A stretch of DNA of 50,494 bases from a virus, in IMG/VR virus record IMGVR_UViG_3300025577_000014, positions 1 to 50,494 of that record. The stretch is one strand, 5' to 3'. Under the pieces are notes generated by a model. That model was not told the origin of the DNA. It searched no databases and saw only the letters and a program-made list of their open reading frames with translations. The position numbers were made by a program, and so were the translations under genes. Of this stretch, positions 9,673-49,088 are shown one piece after another; the first letter of the stretch is position 1; each line of letters starts with the position of its first letter.

Positions 9673-9674
9673 TT

Positions 9675-10844
9675 ATGGCAGTATATAAATTATTTCCCTC
9701 ACAAGACGCTTCAATATATAGTGCTTACCCGGCAATGAATGCAGGACTTGATGCTATATTAGATGTAAATAACAAAGTAACAGATGTAAATCCTGTAGCT
9801 CAAGTAGCAAGATCTTTAATTAAATTCGATCAATCACAAATAGACGATGTAATTGATAATATAGCAAAAGTAACAGGATCATGGGATAACTTTTCAGGAA
9901 GCCTAAAATTAAATGTAGCAAAAGCTACAAATGTTATTTTAAAATCAAACATAGAAGTTTACCCCATATCAGGATCATGGAATAATGGATCAGGACAATA
10001 TTTAGATAAACCTGTTAATCATACTGGTGTAAGTTGGGTATATTCTGACTACTCAGGTTCAAATAAATGGTCAACTGGAGGTTGGAATCCACTTATTACA
10101 GCCTCATTTTCTGGAAGTAATAATGCAGGAGGTGGAGTATGGTATACAGGATCTGGGGGTTATGAAGGAATTGGTCCTTTAGAGTTTACACAATCCTTTA
10201 ATTTAAGAAGTGACAAAGACTTAAATGTTAATGTAACAGATGCATTAAGAGTATGGTATTCATCATCTAGGGGTTTAAATGCAGGTAAAATAGAAATAGC
10301 AAACGAAGGATTTATAGTAAAATGGGAAACTGATAAAGAATTTATTACTTCAAGTGCAGTATCACCTCAATTAAGTTACTATTCAGTAGATACAAATACA
10401 ATTTATCCCCCTCAATTAGAAATAAAATGGGATGATTCTGTATATGAGACAGGATCATTAGAGGTTATTAATACTCCTGATTTATTTGTAGCATTAGATA
10501 ATAACCAGGGTATATTTTATAGTGAAAGTATAAATAATTTTAGATTAAGTGTACGCCCTGAATTTCCCATTCGTAGTTTTCAAACCGCTTCTGTTTATAC
10601 CACAAATTATGCTTTACCTTCACAATCTTTATATGCAATTAAGGATTTAGATACTAATGAATTTGTTGTTGATTTTGATAAAGAATTTACAAATATTAGT
10701 TGTGATTCAACCGGAAGTTTCTTTACTGTTTATATGAATGGTTTGGAACCTGAAAGATATTATTGTATATTGATACAAACTGAGATAGCAGGTCAAACTA
10801 TAGTGATGGATGAAAATTATTACTTTAAAGTAGTTAACGGGTAA
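9675..10844 (+). CDS. Virion protein with DNRLRE-like beta-sandwich domain (389 aa)
   Basis: The N-terminus reads LFPSQDASIYSAYPAMNAG, then SLIKFDQSQIDDV, which matches the DNRLRE/CBM96-type pattern (Asp-Ala-X-Ile, Asn-X-Gly, then Ser-Leu-Ile-Lys-Phe). Such beta-sandwiches bind surfaces or glycans in extracellular proteins. The middle is rich in Trp, Gly and Ser (SWNNGSGQYLDKP, GGWNPLIT). The C-terminal 120 residues form a second beta domain ending YYFKVVNG. Located between gp6 and the giant structural proteins, it is probably a peripheral baseplate component. No T4 counterpart recognised. Confidence 0.5.
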   Translation: MAVYKLFPSQDASIYSAYPAMNAGLDAILDVNNKVTDVNPVAQVARSLIKFDQSQIDDVIDNIAKVTGSWDNFSGSLKLNVAKATNVILKSNIEVYPISGSWNNGSGQYLDKPVNHTGVSWVYSDYSGSNKWSTGGWNPLITASFSGSNNAGGGVWYTGSGGYEGIGPLEFTQSFNLRSDKDLNVNVTDALRVWYSSSRGLNAGKIEIANEGFIVKWETDKEFITSSAVSPQLSYYSVDTNTIYPPQLEIKWDDSVYETGSLEVINTPDLFVALDNNQGIFYSESINNFRLSVRPEFPIRSFQTASVYTTNYALPSQSLYAIKDLDTNEFVVDFDKEFTNISCDSTGSFFTVYMNGLEPERYYCILIQTEIAGQTIVMDENYYFKVVNG

Positions 10845-10851
10845 AAATAGA

Positions 10852-11304
10852 ATGGATAGAAATAAAGAAAAAATAGATTTAATTAAAAAAGTATATTCTA
10901 AAACAGATTATACTAAAATTATAGATACTCGATTTCAACAATTGGGTAACATTTCTGTAAATCAACAAATAGATGAAACGGTTACAGTAAATGATTTTTT
11001 TGAATCTTACAATGATTTATTTTACGATATCCCCTCTTATGGATCTAGTAATTCACATGAATATCTAGTTAAAACTAGTGGTGACTATATAAACTTTGAT
11101 CAAGATAATGAAATAATAGTAGCATTGAGAGCGGAAATATCACAACTAAGAAGGGATTTATTACAAGCACAAATTGCAACTGCCGAAGCACTTTCAGGAG
11201 AAAAAATTAATTTAGATGTTGATAATATACAAGATGAGGATCTATCAGGGAATAAAGAATATAATGATATTATAAGTTCAATCCCAACAACAACAAACCC
11301 ATAA
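10852..11304 (+). CDS. Hypothetical baseplate-block protein (150 aa)
   Basis: The N-terminus is basic and helical (DRNKEKIDLIKKVYSKTDY), with a middle acidic/aromatic section (DFFESYNDLFYDIPSYGSS) and a long helix from about 85 to 115 (ALRAEISQLRRDLLQAQIA) with coiled-coil spacing. The C-terminus is acidic and disordered. The intact frame, close spacing to both neighbours and the structural context support it as real. It may be a trimeric coiled-coil adaptor of the baseplate. No family recognised. Confidence 0.5.
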   Translation: MDRNKEKIDLIKKVYSKTDYTKIIDTRFQQLGNISVNQQIDETVTVNDFFESYNDLFYDIPSYGSSNSHEYLVKTSGDYINFDQDNEIIVALRAEISQLRRDLLQAQIATAEALSGEKINLDVDNIQDEDLSGNKEYNDIISSIPTTTNP

Positions 11305-11331
11305 TACTACAAATACTACTACTTTCTAAAT

Positions 11332-14300
11332 ATGGAAGAAAATAAAATAAATATAGTACAGGTTGACCCAACAACATTTGAGTTTCAACAATATAGTGAA
11401 AAAGATAGCAATTTAATATCTTCTTCAAGATTAGATACTGCTTTTACTTCATCCACAGATTATATAGAGTATTATGCTTATGATGAAAGTAAAAATCTTA
11501 TTTTTCCCACAGTTGGATCAGTAAAAGCAGTTCCCGTAACAAATTATAGTGTAATAAATGGAGATACTTTATTATACCCAGATGAAAATCTTTCAGAACT
11601 AGGGTATGATGAGGGTACTTTTTATGCTACTTATAATTTCTATAGAAAGCTTATAGCTTCAGATATTGAAAATAACTATTATATTAGTGAAATTAGTTCA
11701 GACAGAACAGAATTAAGGTTAAATAGTAATACTATATCCAGTGAATTAATTATTAGTTCAAGTGAAGCATTTATTGGGTTTCGTGAAACTCAAGATTATT
11801 TTGTAGATTTCTTACTTAATTTTGGTAATGATCAACAAGTAATATCAAATAATTTAAGATTAGATACAACAACTGCTGTAGAACCTTCATTATTAGTTAA
11901 ATTATATGAGCCTTTACCTTCCCAATTTGATTTAAAATCAACATTATGGGTAGTTGAAGAAATTTCATATCCTGAAGCATATAGTGTTACTTTTCCACCT
12001 TTTATTTTTGAACCAAATGATATCCAATTCATAAAAGGACCAAACTATAGTATTAATGTAACACAAGAAACAGGTGAATCAAGCCAATTATTTAGTTATG
12101 ATACCTTAATTGGTACAGATATAACTAGTTCTCAAAACCAAGTAAAAAATTTATTAAATAGAAAAGATATTAACATAAGTGTTAATTACAATGAATATAG
12201 TAATTTTGTTCACTTTTCATCCGCCTATACTAGGTTAGATAATTTTTATTATAAAGTAGGATTAATCCAATCTTCAAGTAATGCTATAGATAATTTACTT
12301 TTAAATAGTGGTACTTACAGTTCTAGTAAAGCTGAAATTAGTAATAGTATTGAAAAAATAATTTCTAACTTAGATGGTTGGGAATATTTTATGTATTTTA
12401 ATAGTGGTTCAGAAAAATCATACCCAAAACAAAACACAGAACCTCCTTATATTTTATTTCCAACTGGAAGTACCGAAGCATTAACTTGGGTAGGGAGTAC
12501 AGATGAAGGAAGTCCTTATTATGGAGGACAAGCCCTATCTGCTTCTAATTATGATGAAAATAATCAAGATTATTTATATAATTCAATACCTGAATATCTT
12601 AGAGAAGACCCAGAAAATGAAAAGTATGAATTATTCGTTGATATGGTTGCTCAACAGTATGATAACACATGGTTATATACTAAGAATTTAACCACTAGAT
12701 TTGACGCGGATAACCGTTTAGATTATGGTATTTCTAAGGATTTAGTAGCGGATGCTATTAGAGATTTTGGTATAAAATTATATTCAAATAATTTTAACTC
12801 TAACGATTTATATACCGCCTTTTTAGGATTAACTCCCTCAGGTAGTACATTCCCTTTCCCAGATATGACGGGGTCAATCGATACTCTAGTTAACACACCT
12901 ACGGGGTTTCAGTACGTAGATACTCAAATATCTGCCTCAAACGATATAGTCCCATTAGATGATGTTAATAAGCAATTATATAAACGAATTTACCATAACA
13001 TACCCTTATTACTTAAGAAAAAAGGTACAATAGCTGGTATAAGAGCATTAATTACTGCTTATGGAATCCCAAGTACTATTTTAAGAATAAACGAATTTGG
13101 TGGTAAAGATAGAAACGACTTTCAAGATTGGGATTATAGTGAAGATGTATTTAATTACGCATTTCATTCTGATGGTATAAACAATCAAATTACCTCCTCA
13201 TTTCAATTAAGTGATGATTTTGCTAATACTGTTCAAGAAACAAGACCAAAATCCTTACAATTTAGATTTAAAACACCAGGTGTACCTGAAACAGCAACAC
13301 CAATACATCAAAATTTATGGGTTGGAGATAATAGTACATCCTTTATTACTTTAGATTATACAGGATCAGGAATGACTACTTCAAGTTATAGTGGATCATC
13401 CCCTTCTGAATCTAATGCCTATGGTACTTTAACATTTTATCCAGATGGGGGTAATGGATTAGACAAAACAGCAAGTATAGATTTACCTTTCTTTGATGGA
13501 GGATGGTGGTCAGTAATGGCTACAGTTGATTATTCAGGAAATGATAAAGCTTATATATACGCTGCTAATAGGATTGGTGATAAAATAGGACACTCTGGCT
13601 CAGATAGCATACTACATAACTGGCAATATTGGGATTTAGTTCAAACTTCAAGATTTCCAAATATAAATGGTGTATCTGTAAATGGGGTATTAGCTACACC
13701 TTTTTCTGGAGCATACCAAGAAATAAGATATTGGGATACAGCATTAAGTGAAAGTTTGTTTTACGATTATGTAGTTAATCCTTATTCAACCCAAGGTAAT
13801 ACAATTAATATAACACCTCAAGATTTAGCCTTTAGAGCAGATTTAGGTACACAATTAATAACATCAAGTAGAACTTCAATACATCCTAAAGTTACAGGAT
13901 CTTGGGCAACAACACAGTCCTTTTCAAGTGGGGATAGTGAATTTTATGTAACTGGTTCATTTATACAAAATAGAGAAAGTATTTTCTTAAATCAAGTACC
14001 AGGAGGTATTAAAAATAGGATAAGCGATCAAATTAAAATAGTTCAAGAAGTATTACCTTCTGGTTCTACTTTATCACCTTATAGATCAATACAACAAGAT
14101 ATTTACCCAAGTGGTAGTAATCCTAGTATTAACTATTTAGAAGTAGCATTCTCACCTACAGATCAAGTTAACGATGATATTATAGCACAAATAGGTGCTT
14201 TTAATTTAGGAGAATATATAGGTGATCCTAGACAAATATCTGAATCTGGGTATTCCTACCCACAATTAGATGCTTTAAGAGATGCATATTTTACAAAATA

Positions 14301-36904: not shown

Positions 36905-39900
36905 ATGCCAAACTGGAAGAAACTTATAGTTAGCGGATCAGACGCAACTCTAAACACATTAAACTTATCATCAACTCCCTCTTCAACTACAGTAAATGAT
37001 ATTTTAGTACAAGATAGTAACGGGAATATATATAAAAGATCAAACCTATCACTTCAAGGTACAACAGGTCAAAAAGGACAAAAAGGTCAAACAGGTTTAC
37101 AAGGTATTACTGGTGCTCAAGGTACTATTGGTTCACAAGGTATCCAAGGTATTCAGGGTATTACTGGTGCTCAAGGTACTACAGGCCAAAAAGGTGCAAC
37201 TGGTGCCCAAGGTATACAAGGTACAACAGGTTCTCAAGGAACAACTGGTCAAAAAGGAGCAACGGGTCAAAAAGGACAAAAAGGTGAAGTTGGTGCTCAA
37301 GGTATTCAAGGTATTACAGGTAGTCAAGGTATCCAAGGTGTTCAAGGTACAACAGGAATAAACACAACAGGATTTTCAATAAATTATTTAACTGCAACTA
37401 CAAATTCAGACCCAGGCTCTGGTAATTTAAAATTTAATAGTACTGATCCTGCTACTGCTACAGCTGTTTATGTTAGTGAAACAGATTCAGATGGATTAGG
37501 TATAATAAGTTTATTAGATGAGTTAACTTCTTCTACAAATTCAAATAAATCCGTAGTAGCAATTAGACAAACTGCTAACCCACAATATTATGATACTTTC
37601 TATGTTACATCACAAACCGATAATGGTAGTTGGAGAACTTTAAGTATTACTCATATTGACAAAAATGGTTGGTCTAATTTAAATAATGGAGATAATACAT
37701 TTTTTTCAATTTCTATAAATGGTGACCAAGGTAATAAAGGTAGTACAGGTGCTACAGGTTCACAAGGAATTCAAGGAACAACAGGTACTCAAGGTATACA
37801 AGGTACAACAGGTTCTCAAGGAACAACTGGTCAAAAAGGAGCAACGGGTCAAAAAGGACAAAAAGGTGAAATAGGTGCTCAAGGTACAACGGGTACTCAA
37901 GGTATTACTGGAGTAAAAGGTGATAAAGGTGAAATTGGTGCTCAAGGTATTCAGGGTATAACTGGTTTAACAGGCCAAAAAGGTGCATTAGGTGCTCAAG
38001 GTACAACGGGCCAAAAAGGTGAAGTTGGATCTCAGGGTGCAATTGGTACTCAAGGTATTACTGGTTTAAAAGGACAAAAAGGTGAAATTGGTGCTCAAGG
38101 TACTATTGGTTCACAAGGTATTCAAGGTATTACTGGTCAAAAAGGTGCTACAGGTTCACAAGGTATTCAAGGTATAACAGGTGCAATAGGCTCTCAAGGT
38201 ACAACAGGCCAAAAAGGACAGAAAGGTGAAGTTGGGGCTCAAGGAGTACAAGGTATTCAAGGTACAACAGGTCAAAAAGGACAAAAAGGTGAAATTGGTG
38301 CACAAGGTATAATTGGTTCACAAGGTATTACAGGTACTAAAGGTGAAGAGGGTGCTCAAGGTACCACAGGAACACAAGGTATTACAGGAACAAAAGGTAC
38401 AACAGGTGCTAAAGGTGAAATTGGAGCTCAAGGAACAACAGGCCAAAAAGGTGCAACGGGTTCTCAAGGTATCCAAGGTATAACAGGTGCTACAGGTTCA
38501 CAAGGTACAACAGGACAAAAAGGTGCTACTGGTTCACAAGGTATACAAGGTATAACAGGTGCAACAGGCTCTCAAGGTACAACCGGACAAAAAGGAGCAA
38601 CAGGTTCTCAAGGTATTCAAGGTATTATCGGTACTCAAGGTACAACAGGTCAAAAAGGTGCAACAGGTTCTCAAGGTATCCAAGGTATAACAGGTGCTAC
38701 CGGTTTACAAGGTACAACAGGACAAAAAGGACAAAAAGGTGAAGTTGGTGCCCAAGGTATTACAGGCCAAAAAGGACAAAAAGGTGAAATAGGTGCTCAA
38801 GGTACAACAGGACAAAAAGGTACCACAGGTTCACAAGGTGCAACTGGACAAAAAGGACAAAAAGGTGAAATAGGTGCTCAAGGAACAGATGGTTCATTTG
38901 GTGGTGCTACATTCGATTATACATTCTCTTCAAGTACAAGTGATGCTGACCCAGGAACTGGTAAAGTAAGATTAAATTCTACAACCCAGAATACAGCAGG
39001 AAAAATGTTTATTGACTCAACTGACGATAATGCCAGTAATATAGACGATTTTTTACAATCAATAGATGCTGTTACATCTGCTATTAAGGGTCATGTTAGA
39101 TTATCAAATAGAACAGACGCTACACAATATATATTATTCAGTATATCTGATTTAACTAATAATACAGGTTGGTGGACAGTATTTATAGATGAACAAGCAT
39201 CATCTACTGCATCCCCCTTCTCAAATAATGAAGATGTAATTGTATCATTTGTTGCTACAGGTGATAGAGGAGATAAAGGTTCAACTGGTAATACAGGTTC
39301 ACAAGGTACAACAGGTCAAAAAGGTGCTACTGGTTCTCAGGGTACTACAGGTCAAAAAGGACAAAAAGGTGAAATAGGTACTCAAGGTACAACGGGTGCT
39401 AAAGGTGCTCAAGGTACAACTGGTTCACAAGGTACAACGGGACAAAAAGGTGCTACTGGTTCACAAGGTATTCAAGGTATAACAGGCCAAAAAGGTGCTA
39501 CTGGTTCTCAAGGAACAACAGGGCAAAAAGGAGCAACAGGTTCACAAGGTATCCAAGGATTTACTGGTGGTACAGGTGGACAAGGTGCTAAGGGTAATAC
39601 TGGTTCAACAGGTTTACAAGGTATTCAAGGATTTACAGGTGGCACAGGACAAAAAGGACAAACAGGTAATACAGGTTCTCAAGGTATTCAAGGTATAACA
39701 GGTAATACTGGTGCTCAAGGTCAAAAAGGACAAAAGGGTCAAAATGGTAATACAGGTTCAACTGGTTCACAAGGTATACAAGGATTTACTGGACAAAAAG
39801 GACAAAAAGGTGAAGTTGGTAATACAGGTTCAACTGGTTCACAAGGTATACAAGGATTTACGGGACAAAAAGGACAAAAAGGTCAAACAGGTGCAACAGG

Positions 39901-41305
39901 TGGAGGTGGTGCTCAAGGTACCCAAGGATTTACTGGTGGTACAGGTGGACAAGGTGCTAAAGGTGCTACTGGTTCACAAGGTATTCAAGGTATAACAGGC
40001 CAAAAAGGTGCTACTGGTTCTCAAGGAACAACAGGGCAAAAAGGAGCAACAGGTTCACAAGGTATCCAAGGATTTACTGGTGGTACAGGTGGACAAGGTG
40101 CTAAAGGTGCTACAGGTTCTCAAGGTACTACAGGCCAAAAAGGTACTACTGGTTCACAAGGTATACAAGGTATAACAGGTTCACAAGGTGGTGGTGGTGC
40201 TAAAGGTCAAAAAGGACAGAAAGGTCAAACAGGTGCAACAGGTGGAGGTGGTGCTCAAGGTACTCAAGGATTTACTGGTGGTACAGGAGGACAAGGTGCT
40301 CAAGGTACAACAGGACAAAAAGGACAAAAAGGTCAAACAGGTGCAACAGGTGGAGGTGGTGCTCAAGGTACTCAAGGATTTACTGGTTCACAAGGTGGTG
40401 GTGGTGCTCAAGGTACAACCGGACAAAAGGGTGCTACAGGTCAAAAAGGTGCTACAGGTTCTCAGGGAACAACAGGACAAAAAGGTGCTACTGGTTCACA
40501 AGGTATACAAGGTATAACAGGTTCACAAGGTGGAGGTGGTTCTAAGGGATCAACAGGTTCACAAGGTATTCAAGGTTTTACTGGTTCACAAGGTGGTGGT
40601 GGTTCTAAGGGATCAACAGGTTCACAAGGTACAACAGGCCAAAAAGGTGCTACAGGTTCAAATGCTGGTATAACAACATATCAAAACGCAGGTAATCATA
40701 GAATAATTACAGGAACCTCTTCCAATTCCATAATTTCTGGTGAAAGTAATTTAACATTTAATGGAACTAATTTAGTTTTAGATGGTATCTTAGAGGTGGA
40801 GGATTCAGGAGATCGTGGTCTTTTAGTTTCACCTTCAACAGGAACCTTCAGAATAGGAGATATAGATGAAGTAGGAGGTGGTGCTTATATTAATGGGGAT
40901 GGTGATGATATTTTTATATTAAATGGTGGGAATAATAAATTTGAATTTGGTGGTACAGGTACATTAACAGCAGCAGCGGATATAATAGCATATGGATCTC
41001 CATCAGATATCAGATTAAAAGAAAATATTAAACCTATTGAGTTAGCTTTAGAAAAAGCAATGAAACTTCAAGGTGTTACTTTTGATTGGAAAGAAAGTGA
41101 TAGCATATTAAAATTAAAAGAAGATGTAGGGTTTATAGCTCAGGATGTACAGAAAGTAATACCAGAACTTGTAAGAGAAAATGAAAATGGTATGCTATCA
41201 ATGAGACATCAAGGTATAGCACCTATACTTCTTGAGGCAATAAAAGAATTAAAACTAGAAATAGATTCACTAAAAAATAAAATAAAAGTTTTAGAATCAA
41301 AATAA
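36905..41305 (+). CDS. Collagen-like tail fibre with S74 chaperone (1466 aa)
   Basis: The N-terminus MPNWKKLIVSGSDATLNTL is shared with the fibres at 27612 and 30208. Gly-X-Y runs lie at about residues 49-152, 279-660 and 792-1253. They are rich in Gln-Lys and Thr (GTTGQKGATGSQG) and chemically distinct from the Leu-Gln type of the 1907-aa fibre. Two copies of the beta domain lie between the runs (about 153-278 and 661-791). The head region is about 1254-1366. The C-terminal 100 residues are an S74 intramolecular chaperone: SDIRLKENIKPI with Ser1367 and Lys1372, GFIAQDVQKVIPEL, then a coiled coil. Expected to form a self-trimerising fibre whose chaperone is clipped off. Confidence 0.85.
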   Translation: MPNWKKLIVSGSDATLNTLNLSSTPSSTTVNDILVQDSNGNIYKRSNLSLQGTTGQKGQKGQTGLQGITGAQGTIGSQGIQGIQGITGAQGTTGQKGATGAQGIQGTTGSQGTTGQKGATGQKGQKGEVGAQGIQGITGSQGIQGVQGTTGINTTGFSINYLTATTNSDPGSGNLKFNSTDPATATAVYVSETDSDGLGIISLLDELTSSTNSNKSVVAIRQTANPQYYDTFYVTSQTDNGSWRTLSITHIDKNGWSNLNNGDNTFFSISINGDQGNKGSTGATGSQGIQGTTGTQGIQGTTGSQGTTGQKGATGQKGQKGEIGAQGTTGTQGITGVKGDKGEIGAQGIQGITGLTGQKGALGAQGTTGQKGEVGSQGAIGTQGITGLKGQKGEIGAQGTIGSQGIQGITGQKGATGSQGIQGITGAIGSQGTTGQKGQKGEVGAQGVQGIQGTTGQKGQKGEIGAQGIIGSQGITGTKGEEGAQGTTGTQGITGTKGTTGAKGEIGAQGTTGQKGATGSQGIQGITGATGSQGTTGQKGATGSQGIQGITGATGSQGTTGQKGATGSQGIQGIIGTQGTTGQKGATGSQGIQGITGATGLQGTTGQKGQKGEVGAQGITGQKGQKGEIGAQGTTGQKGTTGSQGATGQKGQKGEIGAQGTDGSFGGATFDYTFSSSTSDADPGTGKVRLNSTTQNTAGKMFIDSTDDNASNIDDFLQSIDAVTSAIKGHVRLSNRTDATQYILFSISDLTNNTGWWTVFIDEQASSTASPFSNNEDVIVSFVATGDRGDKGSTGNTGSQGTTGQKGATGSQGTTGQKGQKGEIGTQGTTGAKGAQGTTGSQGTTGQKGATGSQGIQGITGQKGATGSQGTTGQKGATGSQGIQGFTGGTGGQGAKGNTGSTGLQGIQGFTGGTGQKGQTGNTGSQGIQGITGNTGAQGQKGQKGQNGNTGSTGSQGIQGFTGQKGQKGEVGNTGSTGSQGIQGFTGQKGQKGQTGATGGGGAQGTQGFTGGTGGQGAKGATGSQGIQGITGQKGATGSQGTTGQKGATGSQGIQGFTGGTGGQGAKGATGSQGTTGQKGTTGSQGIQGITGSQGGGGAKGQKGQKGQTGATGGGGAQGTQGFTGGTGGQGAQGTTGQKGQKGQTGATGGGGAQGTQGFTGSQGGGGAQGTTGQKGATGQKGATGSQGTTGQKGATGSQGIQGITGSQGGGGSKGSTGSQGIQGFTGSQGGGGSKGSTGSQGTTGQKGATGSNAGITTYQNAGNHRIITGTSSNSIISGESNLTFNGTNLVLDGILEVEDSGDRGLLVSPSTGTFRIGDIDEVGGGAYINGDGDDIFILNGGNNKFEFGGTGTLTAAADIIAYGSPSDIRLKENIKPIELALEKAMKLQGVTFDWKESDSILKLKEDVGFIAQDVQKVIPELVRENENGMLSMRHQGIAPILLEAIKELKLEIDSLKNKIKVLESK
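39446..40104 (+). repeat. Exact 146-nt direct repeat inside the 1466-aa fibre gene
   Basis: Bases 39446-39591 recur at 39959-40104, an offset of 513 bases (57 Gly-X-Y triplets). The length far exceeds what coding constraint on Gly-X-Y alone would give, because synonymous positions are identical too. Points to recent duplication or gene-conversion within the rod. Confidence 0.7.
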
Positions 41306-42403: not shown

Positions 42404-42972
42404 AAGAATTACAAAAACAATTACATAATTACATTCAAACACCTCAAGACGCATATATAAATGCTAAGTTAGGTGAAGAATATGAAAAAATAGGACAGGG
42501 AGCAGCAGCACATTCTTACTTTTTAAGAGCAGCTGAACTGTTACATGATAGTGACCCTAAAATGGCTTATAATTGTTTTCTAAAAACGTGGAAGCAATTA
42601 AATATAACTACAAGAAGACTTGAGTGGGAACAAGGACAACTCCAAGCTGCTATTGCCTATGCACCTAATAGACCCGAAGCTTATTATCATTTAAGTATAT
42701 GGCATAGCAATAGAAAAGAATGGATGATATCTTATATGTACGCCTGTTTAGGTAAAGATAATATTAAAGAAAATACTCCATTAACCTATGACATAGGATA
42801 CCCGGGTGACTTTGTGTTTGATTTTCAAAAAGCATTTACAGGGTGGTATATAGGTAAAAGAGATCAATCTAAATCTTTATTTTTAGAATTAGGAAAATTA
42901 AAAGATATACCACAAAATTTTAAAGAAATAATCTCTGAAAATATTAGAGATTTTGGTTTACAATATTTATAA
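42391..42972 (+). CDS. TPR-like helical protein (193 aa)
   Basis: Overlaps the propeller gene by 13 bases. The helix-turn-helix pairs have TPR spacing: AKLGEEYEKIGQGAAAHSYF, DPKMAYNCFLKTWKQ, YAPNRPEAYYHLSIWHSNRK. Residues about 130-165 (TYDIGYPGDFVFDFQKAFTG) resemble the segment following TPR units in phage glycosyltransferase-associated proteins. There is no catalytic domain in itself, so it may serve as a scaffold for the propeller protein. Met4 (ATGAAAGAA) is an alternative start. Its last codons overlap a copy of the late box. Confidence 0.5.
   Translation: MGRMKELQKQLHNYIQTPQDAYINAKLGEEYEKIGQGAAAHSYFLRAAELLHDSDPKMAYNCFLKTWKQLNITTRRLEWEQGQLQAAIAYAPNRPEAYYHLSIWHSNRKEWMISYMYACLGKDNIKENTPLTYDIGYPGDFVFDFQKAFTGWYIGKRDQSKSLFLELGKLKDIPQNFKEIISENIRDFGLQYL
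42963..42972 (+). promoter_or_regulatory. Putative late promoter box (ATATTTATAA) overlapping a stop codon
   Basis: The box forms the last codons and stop of the TPR-like gene and lies 15 bases before the ATG at 42988. The next gene is a structural protein, which fits late expression. Confidence 0.38.
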
Positions 42973-42987
42973 TAAAAATATATAAGC

Positions 42988-43386
42988 ATGCCATTACCAT
43001 CATTAGGACCCATAAGCGGAAGCCAAATCTCAGCTGAATTAGGAACAGCATCAACTAATATATCACTAGGTGGAATGGCAGATTCCGCAAGTTTTACAGC
43101 ACCAGATGCATATAGTGACTTTTATGGGTATTCTAACTTAACTTCTTATACAGGAGGCGCATTCCAAACCGGAACCAAATTTATATGTAATTCAACTTTA
43201 AATGTAACATATTATCATGATGGGAGTGGAAATATTCCAACAGTTGGTGATACCATTTATACTAACAGTGGGGGAACTACTGTTATAGGAGGAGGAAATG
43301 CTGGGTATAATAGAACAAATCAGTTTGGTTATCTTCGTACTAACTCTTCGGGAGTTGTAACTAATACTTACCTTTGCGGTCTCTAA
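42988..43386 (+). CDS. Small fibre-tip-like virion protein (132 aa)
   Basis: The N-terminus (LPSLGPISGSQISAELGTAS) and the segment PDAYSDFYGYSNLTS follow a pattern common in small phage virion proteins (SGSQI..ELG ... S.FYGY). The C-terminal 65 residues (LNVTYYHDGSG, PTVGDTIYTNSGGTTVIGGG) are a beta domain that I associate with fibre tips of Bacteroidetes phages. It is the last structural gene before the replication genes. Probably a receptor-contacting or tail-tip protein. Confidence 0.55.
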   Translation: MPLPSLGPISGSQISAELGTASTNISLGGMADSASFTAPDAYSDFYGYSNLTSYTGGAFQTGTKFICNSTLNVTYYHDGSGNIPTVGDTIYTNSGGTTVIGGGNAGYNRTNQFGYLRTNSSGVVTNTYLCGL

Positions 43387-43395
43387 CATATATAT

Positions 43396-43878
43396 ATGAA
43401 TTGGATATACAAACAACATGAAATAAATGATATCACTCAATTCCCAGATAAGACCTTTGGTTTTGTTTATATAACAACACATAAACCTACGGGTAAATCT
43501 TATATTGGAAAGAAAGTATTATTTCATAATCAAAAGAAAAAACTAGGTAAGAAAGAACTTGCTGCTCTAACGGGGGTAGTTGGTAGACGACCTTCATATA
43601 AACTAATAGTCAAAGAATCAGATTGGCTTAAATACTATGGTTCCCAAAAAGATATTAAAAAATTATTAGTTGAAGGTAAAAAAGATGAATTTGAGCGTAC
43701 CATTTTGAAATGTGTAGAGACTAAAAAACAACTTACCTATTTTGAAATTAAATACCAAATGTTATATCAAGTCCTAGAAAAACCAGATGAATTCTTTAAT
43801 GATAATATTCTAGGTAAATTCTTTACAAAAGATTTAGCGGACATAAAATTCGAAGATCTCGTGGTTGAGCGAAAATAA
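43396..43878 (+). CDS. GIY-YIG endonuclease-like protein (160 aa)
   Basis: Residues about 22-38 contain FGFVYITTHKPTGKSYIGKK, a clear GIY-YIG motif pair (Val-Tyr ... Tyr-Ile-Gly-Lys-Lys). Then comes a WLKYYGSQKDIKKLL segment with conserved Trp and Tyr, and a Glu in QLTYFEIKYQM that matches the catalytic Glu of the family. Such free-standing GIY-YIG proteins in T4-like phages are either homing nucleases or host-DNA nucleases. There is no DNA-binding zinc finger or NUMOD repeat. It sits at the border between virion and replication genes. Confidence 0.68.
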   Translation: MNWIYKQHEINDITQFPDKTFGFVYITTHKPTGKSYIGKKVLFHNQKKKLGKKELAALTGVVGRRPSYKLIVKESDWLKYYGSQKDIKKLLVEGKKDEFERTILKCVETKKQLTYFEIKYQMLYQVLEKPDEFFNDNILGKFFTKDLADIKFEDLVVERK

Positions 43879-43896
43879 GTTCGTATATTATATGGT

Positions 43897-45021
43897 ATGA
43901 GTAAAAAAGTATCAGTAATAGGAAAAGGTACAGCAGGTTGTATAACTGCTCTTGATATGTCAAATTCTGGTTACGAAGTTGATTGGTATCATGATTCATC
44001 CATATCCGCAGCTTCTGTAGGTGAAGGAGCAGATATGGAATTTTGTAGATTTTTAGATAAACATACTGATTTAAATTATAATAACCTAGATAGAATTGAT
44101 GGGTATTATAAAGAGGGAATTATTAAAGATAATTGGGGGAATCAAAATTTTACACATTGGTTTAATTTAGGGACTATGTCTTTACATTTTAATTCAAATA
44201 AATTTCAAAACCTTATATTTGAAAATTTAAAATATAAAGTTAATATAATAGACCAACATGTTTCTTCTAAATCCCTTAATAGTGATTATACTATAGATTG
44301 TAGTGGAACACCTATAATTAATAATGAATTTGAATTAGCCAAATACATACCAGTTAACTCTGCTTATATTAGACAGTGTAGTTGGGATTACCCACAATTT
44401 AAATCTACTTTAGCTATTGCTCGTCCTTATGGGTGGGTTTTTTGTATTCCACTTAAAAATAGATGCTCAATAGGATATTTATTCAATAGTAATATAACTA
44501 CAGTAGATGAAATAAGTGAAGATTGGGAACGTATTATCCATGATTATAGTTTAGTTTTAACTAATTATAGTACTCCAAAACTAATAAACTTTTCTAATTA
44601 TTATAGAAAAGAAAATTTTACAGATAAAATATCATATAATGGTAATGCCTCATTTTTTCTAGAACCTATGGAGGCAACTTCTGTTAATATTATTATTAAA
44701 AATAACCAATTAACTAAAGGAATAATCGAAGGCCATTTTGAAACGGATACACATAATAAATCATATACCAATTTTTTAAAAGAAACTCAAGACATGATTA
44801 TGTTACATTATTTAGCTGGTAGTAAATGGAAAAATGAATTTTGGGATATGGCAACATCTAAAGCACAGGATTGTTGGAAAGAATCATTTAAAAATTACCC
44901 CAAATCTCACTTAATTACTAAAGATCAAATTCACTATTCTACATGGAACGCCGATTCCTTTAAGCAAAATTTAACGGGACTAGATTTATATAAAGTTTTA
45001 ACTCAATTACAAAATGGTTAA
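43897..45021 (+). CDS. Flavin-dependent (tryptophan-type) halogenase-like protein (374 aa)
   Basis: The N-terminal Rossmann motif is GKGTAG at residues 9-14 (usual GxGxxG), followed by VGEGADMEF at 41-49, where family members have VGE(A/S)T. Lys72 in YYKEGIIKDNW (70-80) falls where the catalytic Lys lies in halogenases, and Trp80 is kept. Residues 179-185 are GWVFCIP, corresponding to the diagnostic W-x-W-x-I-P but with Phe182 for the second Trp. FLEPMEATSV (254-263) matches the flavin-binding (D/E)P(L/M)E(S/A)T segment. It is shorter than bacterial tryptophan halogenases. Members use FADH2, O2 and halide to form hypohalous acid; halogenases are known in marine phages. Substrate unknown. Overlaps the primase gene by eight bases. 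Confidence 0.65.
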   Translation: MSKKVSVIGKGTAGCITALDMSNSGYEVDWYHDSSISAASVGEGADMEFCRFLDKHTDLNYNNLDRIDGYYKEGIIKDNWGNQNFTHWFNLGTMSLHFNSNKFQNLIFENLKYKVNIIDQHVSSKSLNSDYTIDCSGTPIINNEFELAKYIPVNSAYIRQCSWDYPQFKSTLAIARPYGWVFCIPLKNRCSIGYLFNSNITTVDEISEDWERIIHDYSLVLTNYSTPKLINFSNYYRKENFTDKISYNGNASFFLEPMEATSVNIIIKNNQLTKGIIEGHFETDTHNKSYTNFLKETQDMIMLHYLAGSKWKNEFWDMATSKAQDCWKESFKNYPKSHLITKDQIHYSTWNADSFKQNLTGLDLYKVLTQLQNG

Positions 45022-45949
45022 TCATACATTAGTAACATTAGTTAATTCTGTATTAGGTACAGGTAAAAAAACTGCTCGAGGTAACATGGCATATAAATGT
45101 CCCCACTGTAACCACCATAAACCTAAATTAGAAATTAATTTTACTGAAAATAAAGAGGGTCATAACCCTTGGCATTGTTGGGTATGTGGTAAAAAAGGTA
45201 AATCTATTAGTTTACTATTTAGACAAGCAGGTGCCTCTTCTGATAAAATAAGTGAAGCTAAAACTATAAGTAAAGAAGTAAATTATACTTCATACACAGA
45301 AAAGGTAGATGTAGCAACAATCAAACTACCTGACGAATATATTAGCCTAAATAACGTTGATAACAGCGATATAATGGCTAGACACGCGCTCGCGTACCTA
45401 AATAATAGACACGTGAGTAAATACGATATTCTCAAATATAATATAGGTTATTGTAAAGCAGGTTTATATAAAAATATGGTAATAATTCCCACCTATGATG
45501 TAGAAGGTAAGTTAAACTACTTTACTGCTCGCTCATTTGAAAAGGAACCATACATTAAATATAGAAATCCACAAGTATCAAGAGATATAATACCTAATGA
45601 ACATATGATTAATTGGAATGTACCTATTATATTATGTGAAGGGTTATTTGATGCTTTAGCTATAAAAAGAAACGCAATTCCCTTATTAGGGAAAAATATA
45701 CAGAATAACTTAATGAAAAAAATAGTTACATCTGTAGTAGATAAAATTTATATTGCATTAGATAGGGATGCGATCAAACAAGCTTTGAAGTTCTGTGAAA
45801 AGTTAATGGCAGAAGGCAAAGAAGTCTATCTTGTAGATTTACAAGATAAGGATCCGAGTGAAATGGGTTTTGAAAATTTCACAAAACTAATACAAACAAC
45901 GTTACCATTAACCTACTATGATTTAATGGAACAAAAACTATCAATATGA
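45014..45949 (+). CDS. 61: DNA primase, gp61-like (zinc finger plus TOPRIM)
   Basis: 311 residues. The N-terminal zinc-binding ribbon uses Cys29, Cys32 (CPHCNHH) and Cys55, Cys58 (HCWVCGKKG). A linker precedes the TOPRIM core: Glu209 in LCEGLFDALAI with Asp213, and Asp250/Asp252 in IALDRDAIKQAL. This matches DnaG/gp61-type primases, which make RNA primers for lagging-strand synthesis together with the gp41 helicase. Length is close to T4 gp61 (342 aa). Stop and next start overlap (ATGA at 45946), so it is coupled to the PD-(D/E)XK nuclease. Confidence 0.85.
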   Translation: MVNHTLVTLVNSVLGTGKKTARGNMAYKCPHCNHHKPKLEINFTENKEGHNPWHCWVCGKKGKSISLLFRQAGASSDKISEAKTISKEVNYTSYTEKVDVATIKLPDEYISLNNVDNSDIMARHALAYLNNRHVSKYDILKYNIGYCKAGLYKNMVIIPTYDVEGKLNYFTARSFEKEPYIKYRNPQVSRDIIPNEHMINWNVPIILCEGLFDALAIKRNAIPLLGKNIQNNLMKKIVTSVVDKIYIALDRDAIKQALKFCEKLMAEGKEVYLVDLQDKDPSEMGFENFTKLIQTTLPLTYYDLMEQKLSI

Positions 45950-46725
45950 TCAAAAAATCATACAAAAGATTATTAGAAATTTCAGATGATTATCAACAAG
46001 TTACAATGCCTGATTCAAGGTATTATAGACGTAATAGTAATTATTACCCCTCAGTAACTCATGTTTTAAATTCTTACCCAAAAGGTAAATATTTTGAAGA
46101 TTGGCTTAAAAAAGTAGGTTATAGTGCGGAATGGATTGTTAAGAAAGCAGCAGAAGAAGGAACACAAGTCCATGAAATGATTGAAGACTGGTTAAATGGG
46201 GAAGAAATTACATTTTTGTATAAAGATGGTAATCCTAAAATGCCCGCTCATGTATGGCAAATGTTCCTTAGATTTGTAGATTTTTGGGAAACTTATAATC
46301 CAACACTAATAGAAGCAGAAGTACATTTATTTTCAGATGAAATTAAAGTAGCAGGAACCTGTGATTTAGTATGTGAGATTGAAATAGATGGTAAAATGGA
46401 ACGTTGGATTATAGATTTTAAAACATCTAACCATTTACAAACAACATACGATTTACAAGGAGCAATTTATGCCCAGTGTTATGAAGAATGTTATGGTAAA
46501 AAAATTGACCGTGTAGGAGTTTTATGGTTAAAATCTAAATCTAGGGGTGAAGATAAATCTGGTAAACGTTTAAAAGGTAAAAATTGGGAAGTATATGAGT
46601 CACCTCGTACACAGGAACAAAATATAGAAATATTTACTCATGTTAAAGCCTTATTTGATATTGAAAATCCAAAACCAAAACCTTATACAAACACATTTAA
46701 AACCTCTTCGAAGAGAACCGTGTAA
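45946..46725 (+). CDS. PD-(D/E)XK nuclease (RecB/Cas4-like)
   Basis: 259 residues. Motif set: His76 in GTQVHEMIEDWL, Glu125 in EAEVHLF, Asp140 in AGTCDLVCEI, Asp157-X-Lys159 in WIIDFKTSN, and Gln171/Tyr175 in LQGAIYAQCYEE. This is the order seen in RecB/AddB/Cas4-type exonucleases, with the QxxxY motif after the core. No iron-sulfur cysteine quartet is evident. The C-terminus is basic. It is likely a phage recombination or DNA-end processing nuclease working with the replication genes next to it. The end of the gene contains a perfect 12-base palindrome (46704-46715). Confidence 0.75.
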   Translation: MIKKSYKRLLEISDDYQQVTMPDSRYYRRNSNYYPSVTHVLNSYPKGKYFEDWLKKVGYSAEWIVKKAAEEGTQVHEMIEDWLNGEEITFLYKDGNPKMPAHVWQMFLRFVDFWETYNPTLIEAEVHLFSDEIKVAGTCDLVCEIEIDGKMERWIIDFKTSNHLQTTYDLQGAIYAQCYEECYGKKIDRVGVLWLKSKSRGEDKSGKRLKGKNWEVYESPRTQEQNIEIFTHVKALFDIENPKPKPYTNTFKTSSKRTV

Positions 46726-46728
46726 AAA

Positions 46729-46786
46729 TTTGGCTACCCGGGCTATCTTTCGTATATTTACCATGTTGAGCAGTTAAGCACAACAT
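46729..46786 (+). promoter_or_regulatory. Early-type promoter and 5' leader, copy 1
   Basis: TTTG at 46729-46732 and TATATTTA at 46753-46760 are separated by 20 bases, as in the Bacteroidetes TTTG / TAnnTTTG promoter. Downstream, ATGTTGaGC agttaa GCaCAACAT (about 46763-46786) can form a hairpin that would lie at the 5' end of the transcript. Bases 46731-46786 are repeated at 47054-47109 with two mismatches. It serves the 76-aa gene at 46804. Confidence 0.6.
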
Positions 46787-46803: not shown

Positions 46804-47034
46804 ATGATGAGTCCAGAAGAAATTTATTTTGCAGAACAAGAGTTCAATCGTTTTGAAGAGATTATGAATACAAAAGAAATCCTTACAAAAGAGGAGTATG
46901 ATTTTTGTTTTGCATATGATAAAGATATTAGAGAAGATACCTCTTATATTGGGGATGGTGAGTATTTAAACCTAAGGGTTTATAGTGAACATGATCACGA
47001 AAAACGTGGAGAAGATGATGTTAACAACTGGTAA
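46804..47034 (+). CDS. Small acidic hypothetical protein (76 aa)
   Basis: It lies 17 bases after promoter copy 1. Very acidic, with helices in EEIYFAEQEFNRFEEIMN and KEEYDFCFAYDKDIRED and a His-rich EHDHEKRGEDD tail. Starts Met-Met; the second is an alternative start. No family recognised. Strong acidic character and an own promoter hint at a host-directed inhibitor or DNA mimic, which is speculation from composition. Confidence 0.5.
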   Translation: MMSPEEIYFAEQEFNRFEEIMNTKEILTKEEYDFCFAYDKDIREDTSYIGDGEYLNLRVYSEHDHEKRGEDDVNNW

Positions 47035-47044
47035 AAATAATGCA

Positions 47045-47063
47045 CGGGAGGCTTGGCTTCCCG
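47045..47063 (+). other. GC-rich hairpin upstream of promoter copy 2
   Basis: cgggaggc-ttg-gcttcccg forms an 8-bp stem with one G-U pair and a 3-base loop, in an otherwise AT-rich region. It overlaps the -33 element of promoter copy 2. No U-tract follows, so it is an imperfect terminator candidate for the 76-aa gene or a regulatory hairpin. Copy 1 lacks this stem. Confidence 0.4.
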
Positions 47064-47109
47064 GGCTATCTTTCGTATATTTACCACGTTGAGCAGTTAA
47101 GCACAACAT
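47052..47109 (+). promoter_or_regulatory. Early-type promoter and 5' leader, copy 2
   Basis: CTTG at 47052-47055, 20 bases, then TATATTTA at 47076-47083. The downstream stem (GTTGaGC / GCaCAAC) is kept, including the loop AGTTAA. The 56-base block matches copy 1 at all but two positions, one being T to C beside the stem. It serves the 49-aa gene at 47123 and perhaps the following operon. Confidence 0.6.
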
Positions 47110-47290: not shown

Positions 47291-47746
47291 ATGAAAAAAA
47301 TAGTATATTTACACGGTTTAGATAGTGAACAAGGAGGAACAAAAGTATCTTTCTTGTCAACAAAAGGTACAGTTTATGCACCTGAAATGAATTATGAAAC
47401 CCTAGATTTAGATGAATTCATTTATACTTTAGGTATGCCTGACATAATCATAGGTTCCAGTATGGGGGGCTATGTCGCTGATATTATTGGTTCAAGATTA
47501 GGAGTTGATGTTTTACTATTTAATCCTGCATTACATAGTAGACGAATAGATCCTGGGTATGAATATTATGGTAACACATACGAACGTACAATTGTCTTAG
47601 GTACTGAAGATGATATTGTTGACCCTGAATTAACTAAAAAACTATGGTCTGTTCATGGTAATGAAGCAATACATGATGAAGTTGAAGGTATGGGCCACAG
47701 AACGCCACTTGATGTTTTTATCAATATGTATAATAAACATATTTAA
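47291..47746 (+). CDS. YqiA-like alpha/beta-hydrolase esterase (151 aa)
   Basis: The compact alpha/beta-hydrolase core resembles the YqiA/UPF0227 family. LHGLDSEQGGTK (residues 7-18) is the oxyanion-hole strand with His8-Gly9. GSSMGG (55-60) is the nucleophile elbow with Ser57. GTEDDIVD (104-111) supplies the acid, and His136 in GMGHRTPLDVF completes the triad. E. coli YqiA has esterase activity on short acyl esters. The true substrate here is unknown. It starts after aataaaggtt and lies three bases before the first of the tagged genes, so it probably shares their transcript, yet it lacks the tag. Confidence 0.68.
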   Translation: MKKIVYLHGLDSEQGGTKVSFLSTKGTVYAPEMNYETLDLDEFIYTLGMPDIIIGSSMGGYVADIIGSRLGVDVLLFNPALHSRRIDPGYEYYGNTYERTIVLGTEDDIVDPELTKKLWSVHGNEAIHDEVEGMGHRTPLDVFINMYNKHI

Positions 47747-47748
47747 TT

Positions 47749-48294
47749 ATGATCAAACTAGTAGATCTCTTAAATGAGATAGATATACCAAAAAATACAT
47801 GGACAACTATACCATCTTCAGAATTACAGGATTATGATGAAGAAATATTCAAATTAATTTCTACAGCTTATGCTCCTATTGGTGGTCATCCTAATTTTAC
47901 TTCTCCGGACTCAATAACAGGCAAAGAATCAGATGCCAAATATGTAGTAATAGATTTAGATAACGATGATGAAATTGATGCTCTATCAGCATACAAACAA
48001 AAAGGGTTTGGAAATAAGTTTATAGCAACGGGTCATGATGGTACTAAACCTGCTAAATCCAAAGTAGTAAATTATAGAGCAGATCTATTAAAACAACCAG
48101 GATATTATATAGAAGTATCAGGAGCATGGATAGATATTCTTTCTTCTAAGGGTGTAGAACCAGTTGATGATGAAGAATTGGTACGTAAAGTACTTAGGGG
48201 TAAAGATATTGAATGGTTAGGCAACGGAAAATATAAGAGAAATATAGCAGGAAAGTTATATACAAAAACATTAATGGGAAAACCAACAGTATGA
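47749..48294 (+). CDS. Putative head-packaged protein with N-terminal tag (181 aa)
   Basis: The first ten residues, MIKLVDLLNE, end in Leu-X-Glu and match in length and style T4 capsid-targeting peptides such as that of the internal proteins (MKTYQEFIAE), cut after Glu10 by the prohead protease. The body has KYVVIDLDNDDEIDALSAYK, GNKFIATGHDGTKPAKSKVV and an IDILSSKGVEPVDDEELVRK stretch. It reminds me of a conserved phage protein annotated as acetyltransferase-like, but I cannot show the GNAT acetyl-CoA motif. The stop overlaps the next start (ATGA). Confidence 0.5.
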   Translation: MIKLVDLLNEIDIPKNTWTTIPSSELQDYDEEIFKLISTAYAPIGGHPNFTSPDSITGKESDAKYVVIDLDNDDEIDALSAYKQKGFGNKFIATGHDGTKPAKSKVVNYRADLLKQPGYYIEVSGAWIDILSSKGVEPVDDEELVRKVLRGKDIEWLGNGKYKRNIAGKLYTKTLMGKPTV

Positions 48295-49088
48295 TAAGTT
48301 TAGTACAATTATTAAAAGAAGCACAAGGTAATCCAAAAGCGATTATCTTAGCAGGAGCACCTGGAGCAGGTAAAGGATATATTTTAAAGGGTTTAGATTT
48401 AGGAGGTCTGAAAGTAATGAATATAGATGACATTTATATTAATATGCTTAAAAAAGCGAATGTTAGTTTAGATTTAAAAAATGCTACACCTGAAGAAAGA
48501 AGCGAACAAGCTAAACAAATGGCGGCTGCAAATAAAGAATTTAAAGGAAATATAGCGGCTACTATAGAAGGAAAAGAATCATTTATACTAGATGGTACAG
48601 CAGCTTCAGTAAAATCAACAACAACCTTAAAATCAGAATTAGAAGAAGCAGGATATGATGTATTTATGCTTTATGTTTATACTGATTTAGAACGTTCACT
48701 TAAACAAAACCAAGATAGATTTGAAAAATCAGGAGGTGAAGATAGAAGTTTAGCACCTGCTATTGTAATGCGTACTTGGGCTGGTGTAACTAGAAACTAT
48801 GATGCTTATAAAAGTTTGTTTGGTAACAATTTTGTTTCAGTTGCTAATACTTTAGAAGATGAAAAATTAAGTGATTTAGAAAGTATAGTAGATAAGTACT
48901 TAACACCATTCAAACCTACAGGAACTAAACCTAAAGATGAAAAAGCAAAAGCCAGATCAGCTAAAGCAAAAGCCAAACTAGATGGTGAGTTAAATGCTTT
49001 ATTAGCAGATGATGGAGTTAAAGATATTATAGATAATTCAGTATCAAAAGAAGAAGCACAATCTAAAATAAAACAATTTTTATCTTAA
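48291..49088 (+). CDS. P-loop kinase / zeta-toxin-like protein with N-terminal tag (265 aa)
   Basis: The N-terminal MISLVQLLKE repeats the tag of the gene before, with Leu-Lys-Glu at residues 8-10. The Walker A motif GAPGAGKG is at 22-29, followed by VMNIDDIYI and a switch segment FILDGTAASVKS. MLYVYTDLERSLKQNQDRF and the following Arg/Thr-rich helix fit the lid of polynucleotide-kinase or zeta-toxin type P-loop enzymes. The C-terminal 60 residues are Lys/Ala-rich (AKARSAKAKAKLDGELN). The substrate could be a nucleotide, a nucleic-acid end or a peptidoglycan precursor as for zeta toxins. The stop shares one base with the next start. Confidence 0.62.
   Translation: MISLVQLLKEAQGNPKAIILAGAPGAGKGYILKGLDLGGLKVMNIDDIYINMLKKANVSLDLKNATPEERSEQAKQMAAANKEFKGNIAATIEGKESFILDGTAASVKSTTTLKSELEEAGYDVFMLYVYTDLERSLKQNQDRFEKSGGEDRSLAPAIVMRTWAGVTRNYDAYKSLFGNNFVSVANTLEDEKLSDLESIVDKYLTPFKPTGTKPKDEKAKARSAKAKAKLDGELNALLADDGVKDIIDNSVSKEEAQSKIKQFLS

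Follow-up and report, generated by a model that had tools for sequence, protein, structure and literature searches.

A short-form phage halogenase from the SrpI-type clade, with peptide- or protein-bound tryptophan as a possible substrate

The marine phage DNA analysed here (IMG/VR record IMGVR_UViG_3300025577_000014, 50,494 nucleotides, referred to in full as the window) encodes a flavin-dependent halogenase of unusually compact form, which belongs to a clade of short enzymes found in phages and bacteria. We propose, with even confidence, that this is a working short-form halogenase shared with the SrpI-type RiPP enzymes, one that most likely acts on tryptophan or another electron-rich aromatic bound in a peptide or protein. 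The homology, fold, conservation, purifying selection, clade membership and RiPP context of the bacterial sister group described below were all observed computationally. The gene and its landmarks are as follows.

43897..45021, plus strand: short flavin-dependent halogenase, 374 aa, ATG start (PF04820, phrog_2928, fold and tree)
44110..44112, plus strand: codon of the catalytic Lys72, aligned to Lys79 of PrnA and RebH (alignment to PDB chains; conserved in 80/81 viral homologues of the short form)
44155..44163, plus strand: HxF (His87-Phe89), the ring-clamp motif, immediately after which the insert is missing (RebH/9luq alignment; loop lengths)
44434..44451, plus strand: WVFCIP (W180-P185), a WxFxIP variant of WxWxIP (Phe versus Trp counts across aligned rows)
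44656..44682, plus strand: FLEPMEATS tunnel motif (F254-S262) with Glu259 (kept in 76 of 81 short viral homologues)
44944..44946, plus strand: codon of Trp350, at the position of the Trp in the RebH NFW motif (alignment; Trp in 73 of 81 homologues)

The protein matches PF04820 (Trp_halogenase) at 91.9 bits against a cut-off of 21, and phrog_2928 ('tryptophan halogenase') with an E-value of 4.5e-56, both far beyond chance. The landmarks on which the initial annotation based its call of a halogenase-like gene (GxGxAG, VGE, Lys72 and FLEPMEATSV) were all found in the 374-aa frame, with the flavin-binding GxGxxG reading GKGTAG (G9-G14) and VGE at residues 41-43, and the two oddities that it pointed out, WxFxIP for WxWxIP and the short length, were borne out as well. 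The FX[DE]PX[EFL] motif given in the available text of PMC8407142 is present as FLEPME. Two other motifs, both typical of the family, are not kept in strict form: WxWxIP reads WVFCIP, a WxFxIP variant of the kind also found in the bacterial locus L095 described below, and Fx.Px.Sx.G reads FLEPMEATS, with A for S and S for G (FMEPLQATA in L095). According to the same text of PMC8407142, WxWxIP is typical and not defining, since active enzymes may carry variants of it or lack it altogether.

A careful tree of 48 rows places the window enzyme in a single branch of viral short and bacterial short halogenases with support of 100/100, within which the viral short forms (100/98) and the bacterial short forms (95/81) each group together, and outside of which the long viral forms fall. 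This tree was built from 19 of 43 viral short representatives (the long-branch L010 and L015 were left out), 16 of 39 long bacterial rows and seven of eight viral long proteins (L083, which lies inside the short clade in the quick tree, was left out). The quick tree of 81 rows, with 43 viral short representatives and 24 of the 39 long bacterial rows, agrees, with a long-branch Campylobacter phage protein just outside the clade and one 470-aa protein inside it. Shortness and WxFxIP are marks of this viral and bacterial short clade: the Phe is found in 41/43 viral short, 6/6 bacterial short and 1/39 bacterial long rows (Trp holds that position in 38 of the 39), and the loop after HxF, which runs to 51-75 residues in bacterial long forms, has 5-27 in the viral and 8-9 in the bacterial short ones. 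For members of the short clade, 'tryptophan halogenase' is probably a misleading name.

Among solved structures, Trp halogenases are closest in sequence (9luq at 6e-14, PrnA at 4e-10 to 6e-10 and VirX1 at 3e-4). An AlphaFold model made with 73 viral sequences reached a pLDDT of 94.5 and a pTM of 0.92, and Trp halogenases rank first for this model by both Foldseek and VIA-align, with Z of 40.2 to AbeH and SttH, 35 to PrnA and 31.4 to VirX1 (352 residues). The modelling, comparison with PrnA and viral halogenases, and phylogeny suggested in the initial annotation agree with the profile matches on a halogenase with a confidently predicted fold. The kinship with ordinary FAD monooxygenases that it had held up as a contrary outcome appeared in neither profile, fold nor tree, and Lys72, which it feared might be misplaced, aligns in sequence with the Lys of RebH.

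With regard to the substrate pocket, Trp350 falls on the Trp of the RebH NFW motif in the alignment, and the HxF at 87-89 matches by eye the Trp2 motif, likewise HxF, given for characterised enzymes in the available text of PMC8269204, whereas the Trp4 anchor motif given there for groups A and B (YYxxF..EFxNFWxNxxYY or YYHGxxxYS) is not kept, the window protein reading YSTWNADSFKQN. The ring clamp therefore looks kept, and the amino-acid anchors do not. Which residues of PrnA and RebH clamp and which anchor tryptophan is an assignment that we in part presume. Ser354 of the window enzyme aligns to an Asn of wild-type RebH (presumably Asn470), where tryptamine-selective RebH variants carry Ser. 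Taken from sequence, a kept clamp, absent anchors and Ser354 would fit an indole-bearing substrate without a free amino-acid group.

The bacterial members of the clade were then considered in their genomic context. The short form is rare in bacteria, and eight bacterial short loci were recognised (three in the genome-contig search, six high-scoring genomes among 1,057 and two in a cyanobacterial set of 386), which score 256-393 bits with the short profile versus at most 192 for long forms. Two of them, L181 and L182, were found later and stand outside the tree; they are short by score (324 and 312 bits), by WIFTIP and by their short loop. RiPP markers are present in 7/8 bacterial short loci and 1/24 long-form controls (Fisher p 1.8e-5), or in 5/6 when the three picocyanobacteria are taken as one lineage (p 2.4e-4). 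The marker queries came from the short loci themselves, which is a bias; without the main source locus the count is 6/7 (p 6.4e-5). As controls, 32 long-form regions were requested, of which the 24 of at least 16 kb were counted, seven shorter ones were also marker-free, and L114 was not counted. Some RiPP profile matches lie under the NCBI cut-offs, such as the exporter of L093, which is cut by the locus end.

L095, from a Gammaproteobacteria MAG, has K84, Y102, P105, Q106, Q107, V108, S109 and Y110, the same eight residues named for SrpI in the available text of PMC10858898 and PMC10286304, and from this agreement of 8/8 we infer that L095 is SrpI. Its neighbours include a YcaO/TOMM protein above cut-off and NHLM-type exporters. 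SrpI is described in those texts (PMC10858898/PMC10286304) as brominating the C-terminal Trp of leader-bearing peptides and not free Trp, and as brominating free indole at another position. Among the other loci, the three of picocyanobacteria have C39-type peptide exporters, the myxobacterial one has YcaO, TfuA and TP-methylase genes with a 69-aa ORF that retrieved a weak NHLP-clan match, and L182 has part of a LanM together with an NHLM exporter that scores above cut-off; no RiPP markers were found in the locus L149. In L181 (cyanobacterial genome G1112, 9187-13168), the short halogenase is accompanied by an oxidase-like gene, by an NHLM exporter scoring above cut-off and by three Nif11 precursors, each with Trp as the last residue of its core. 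This locus is a candidate source of halogenated peptides and, to our knowledge, has not been reported as a RiPP locus.

In the window itself, Pfam, PHROG and NCBIfam scans of the neighbours returned no RiPP precursor, leader, maturation or export gene, and thus we do not class the window enzyme as a RiPP halogenase. An auxiliary metabolic halogenase acting on a free small host metabolite (an indole, phenol, pigment or signal) has to be weighed here: VirX1 takes many free aromatics in the available text of PMC8407142, SrpI also accepts free indole, the ring clamp is kept, and no phage peptide substrate was found in the neighbours. Nevertheless, the sister group lies in RiPP rather than small-molecule loci in 7/8 cases and the window has no biosynthetic gene set adjacent to the halogenase, and we consider this reading unlikely, if well worth keeping in mind. 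The initial annotation had guessed at a nucleotide or a small host metabolite as substrate; nothing was found in favour of the former, and the latter may hold, but peptides are the substrates of the closest bacterial relative to have been characterised.

A tblastn search matched 68/50,697 phage records, mostly cyanophages but also Campylobacter and Pelagibacter phages. The IMG/VR profile search gave at least 564 relatives among at least 599 stretches; the best 80 loci were kept and joined with 10 annotated phage regions, which yielded 81 non-redundant short proteins of 334-418 aa and eight long ones of 470-499 aa (110 halogenase matches reduced to 89, with L001, L002, L005 and L016 dropped along with proteins that share the same last 330 residues). 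In the short viral homologues, in addition to the residues listed above, the flavin-motif glycines G9 and G11 are kept in 81/81 and G14 in 79/81. The dN/dS ratio is 0.04-0.16 in pairs with dS of 0.1-1.5, with the exception of L003/L004 at 0.355, and 0.14-0.63 in pairs with very few changes. The viral short halogenases are under purifying selection. An inactive or repurposed, monooxygenase-like FAD protein could account for the loss of strict WxWxIP and Fx.Px.Sx.G and for the 5/81 relatives that have no Glu259, but the near-universal Lys72 (80/81), the strong purifying selection, and variants of the same kind (WIFGIP and FMEPLQATA) in L095, which matches the active SrpI, make this very improbable.

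The available texts describe cyanophage T4-GC 212/PrnA in short and long sizes (PMC3037559, PMC2984593) and flavin-dependent halogenases in 20/153 cyanophage genomes (PMC10452541). The halogenase of S-RIM4 (MK493321.1 23689-24852) is annotated as hypothetical, and in S-PM2 (AJ630128.1 121883-122458) no annotation lies under the halogenase match. Two or three tandem halogenase genes, or a short and a long one in the same locus, were also seen (L087, L090/L091, L031, L044, L065; L032, L041, L058, L062). A flavin reductase, which the initial annotation advised looking for, did not turn up: PF01613 matched 0/36 virus records, most of them fragments, with controls positive in 13/14 genomes, and FADH2 would therefore have to come from the host.

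The surroundings of the halogenase in the window are as follows.

36905..41305, plus strand: collagen-like tail fibre of 1466 aa that carries a Peptidase_S74 domain at its C-terminus (sequence, domain match)
42963..42974, plus strand: last late-promoter-like motif (ATATTTATAATA) upstream of the halogenase-bearing run (seven matches versus 1.03 expected)
42988..43386, plus strand: small protein whose N-terminus resembles by eye the Gly-rich adhesin-like proteins (c24) of relatives (weak match to phrog_21885, function unknown)
43396..43878, plus strand: GIY-YIG SegE-like protein (phrog_447; PF19835 at 91.5 bits), adjoining the halogenase throughout the clade (synteny)
45014..45949, plus strand: DnaG-like DNA primase, start overlapping the halogenase stop by 8 bases (phrog_47, E 9.8e-46)
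45946..46725, plus strand: PD-(D/E)XK exonuclease (phrog_298, PF12705)

The last 8 bases of the halogenase frame, stop codon included, are shared with the primase, whose ATG lies at 45014 (ATGGTTAA); the Pfam Toprim matches of the primase reach the cut-off or fall slightly short of it. Within the window clade the gene order (GIY-YIG, halogenase, primase, exonuclease) is conserved at about 50% protein identity, with an overlap of 4, 7 or 8 bases in 10/10 clade loci showing both genes. The coupling to the primase described in the initial annotation is therefore real and conserved in the enzyme's own clade, but it is local, as the primase adjoins the halogenase in 10/77 loci, every one of them in the two identity clusters closest to the window. 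In its backbone the window phage most resembles Flavobacterium phage immuto (46% for the primase and 43% for the baseplate protein), in which no halogenase was found between the tail-spike genes and the primase and for which the phage-record search gave no tblastn match. Modification of nucleotides or DNA bases as part of replication, which the overlap in the window clade and gp59 or primase neighbours in some loci might suggest, is highly improbable, since the position of the gene changes between lineages and the open-licence literature found reports no relative acting on nucleotides.

The further claim that the halogenase is expressed with replication genes and not virion genes was unsupported. 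It lies in one tight plus-strand run that follows the genes for the collagen-like fibre and adhesin-like proteins, and between 42963 and 47045 the intergenic stretches show no terminator-like site on the plus strand. The motif ATATTTATAA(N)A has seven matches in the window (3844, 7013, 17065, 21796, 24609, 27553 and 42963; 1.03 expected), all on the plus strand and each no more than about 60 bases ahead of the start of an ORF, and is likely a late-promoter element of this phage. Its reverse complement holds TATAAATA, which we take to be the T4 late box, leaving the orientation of the motif ambiguous. With a fibre-led run before the gene and the last late-promoter-like motif at 42963, the halogenase is no less likely to be co-expressed with virion genes than with replication genes, and expression with replication genes only was dropped, the neighbourhoods of relatives being variable as well. 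A TTCGTATATTA element before the halogenase and at two later sites has four matches (one mismatch allowed) versus 2.6 expected and is no evidence. Further downstream we observed a repeated element (46749-46759 and 47045-47082; a terminator-like hairpin at 47045 and TTCGTATATTT at 46749 and 47072) and, after the replication genes, a UPF0227 esterase-like protein (47291-47746) and a Zeta-toxin/kinase-like P-loop protein (48291-49088; PF06414 at 61.7 bits).

In other lineages the halogenase follows a tail fibre and a PF16778 tail-assembly chaperone or lies between a fibre and a Gly-rich adhesin-like protein, and in further ones it is found beside a carbamoyltransferase, after a gp59 helicase loader or in tandem arrays. 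Among annotated isolates, it lies by structural and fibre genes in S-RIM4 and S-ShM2, and follows the major head protein in Sf-CH8, gp33 in S-SSM5 and DNA ligase in CP21. When near and far genes were compared with weighting by identity cluster (43 clusters), fibre-type genes were commoner near the halogenase (0.041 vs 0.014 far), but in 5/43 clusters only, and a tail-fibre partnership was not adopted; an S74 fibre domain is present in 12/36 records, from 1 kb to over 40 kb away. Trp within the last five residues of near neighbours is not enriched (19/243 near vs 51/401 far), and a 76-aa window ORF (46804-47034) that ends in Trp was set aside, as relatives encode at this position c36 proteins that lack the terminal Trp. 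Two families of about 230-250 aa with no Pfam match (c22 and c14; one is phrog_7084, function unknown) adjoin the halogenase in several phages (0.028 near vs 0.001 far; e.g. L082 5313-6002 and L035 7851-8615).

A phage cluster for a halogenated sugar or amino-acid product or for capsule decoration, as proposed for jumbo cyanophages in the available text of PMC7824862, would account for the NodU/CmcH-type carbamoyltransferase directly beside the halogenase in L025, L042, L043, L048 and L050 and for the 2OG oxygenases of many loci. We regard this as improbable: carbamoyltransferases are near in 4/43 clusters, neither gene type lies beside the window halogenase, and a partnership with 2OG-Fe(II) oxygenases, striking by eye, failed because they are no commoner near (0.046) than far (0.050).

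Returning to the peptide- or protein-directed reading, the host-reduced FAD, oxygen and halide would form hypohalite, which would be passed to Lys72, with Glu259 aiding activation and an indole-like ring held by His87, Phe89 and Trp350. The substrate would be the side chain of Trp (or of an electron-rich aromatic) in a peptide or protein of phage or host. We infer activity, halide and peptide substrate alike, and we place a bound side chain first because the insert after HxF is missing and the amino-acid anchor motif is not kept. Against it stand the lack of RiPP genes beside the phage halogenase, the lack of Trp-end enrichment and a fibre neighbourhood in only 5/43 clusters, and the long viral branch means that the substrate may have changed from that of the bacterial short forms. 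More broadly, and tentatively, many marine phages may carry a protein halogenase that brominates or chlorinates Trp of their own fibre or adhesin or of host proteins during infection. Such a putative enzyme would share descent with RiPP-brominating enzymes. We know of no such post-translational halogenation described for phages.

Halogenase-like cyanophage genes have been listed since at least 2010, with no agreed role in the available texts (PMC2984593, PMC3037559, PMC10452541), and no paper tying phage halogenases to SrpI-type peptide halogenases was found in the open-licence literature. The position of the short viral forms beside peptide brominases, and apart from the long viral forms, offers a concrete and testable substrate class. 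Judging from sequence, phages of the window type may chemically mark proteins or peptides during infection; if so, mass spectrometry could be used to look for halogenated sites in proteins of phage or host, and biocatalysis would gain access to a large set of compact peptide halogenases.

Several known systems, treated in the available texts of PMC8407142 (VirX1), PMC12615548 (peptide halogenases), PMC11791876 (MppI), PMC8269204 (motif groups), PMC7948982 (catalytic Lys) and PMC7824862 (the proposed secondary-metabolite or capsule cluster), may be compared with the window enzyme. PrnA, RebH, AbeH and SttH have the fold, the Lys, the Glu and the ring-clamp positions in common with it, but keep the post-HxF insert, the W of WxWxIP and the Trp4 anchor motif, which it does not. 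VirX1 (cyanophage Syn10, PDB 6qgm), a viral enzyme with the same fold and the same Lys and Glu, is long at 531 aa, and long viral forms fall outside the short clade (VirX1 itself is absent from the tree). The phage 'tryptophan halogenase' family (T4-GC 212, phrog_2928; S-RIM4, S-ShM2, S-SSM7 and CP21) is the same family in its short form, the S-RIM4 halogenase being 41% identical to the window enzyme, yet in these four phages the neighbours differ and there is no translational coupling to a primase. SrpI, as represented by L095/L148, is a leader-dependent RiPP (proteusin) brominase of sponge microbiomes. Unlike the window gene, L095/L148 lie in a YcaO/NHLM peptide cluster, with Gln in place of Glu259 and Phe in place of Trp350; they are 27% identical to the window enzyme (22-31% across the viral forms), and yet they belong to the same clade and share with it the missing insert after HxF, WxFxIP, the catalytic Lys and A for S in FxEPxxS.
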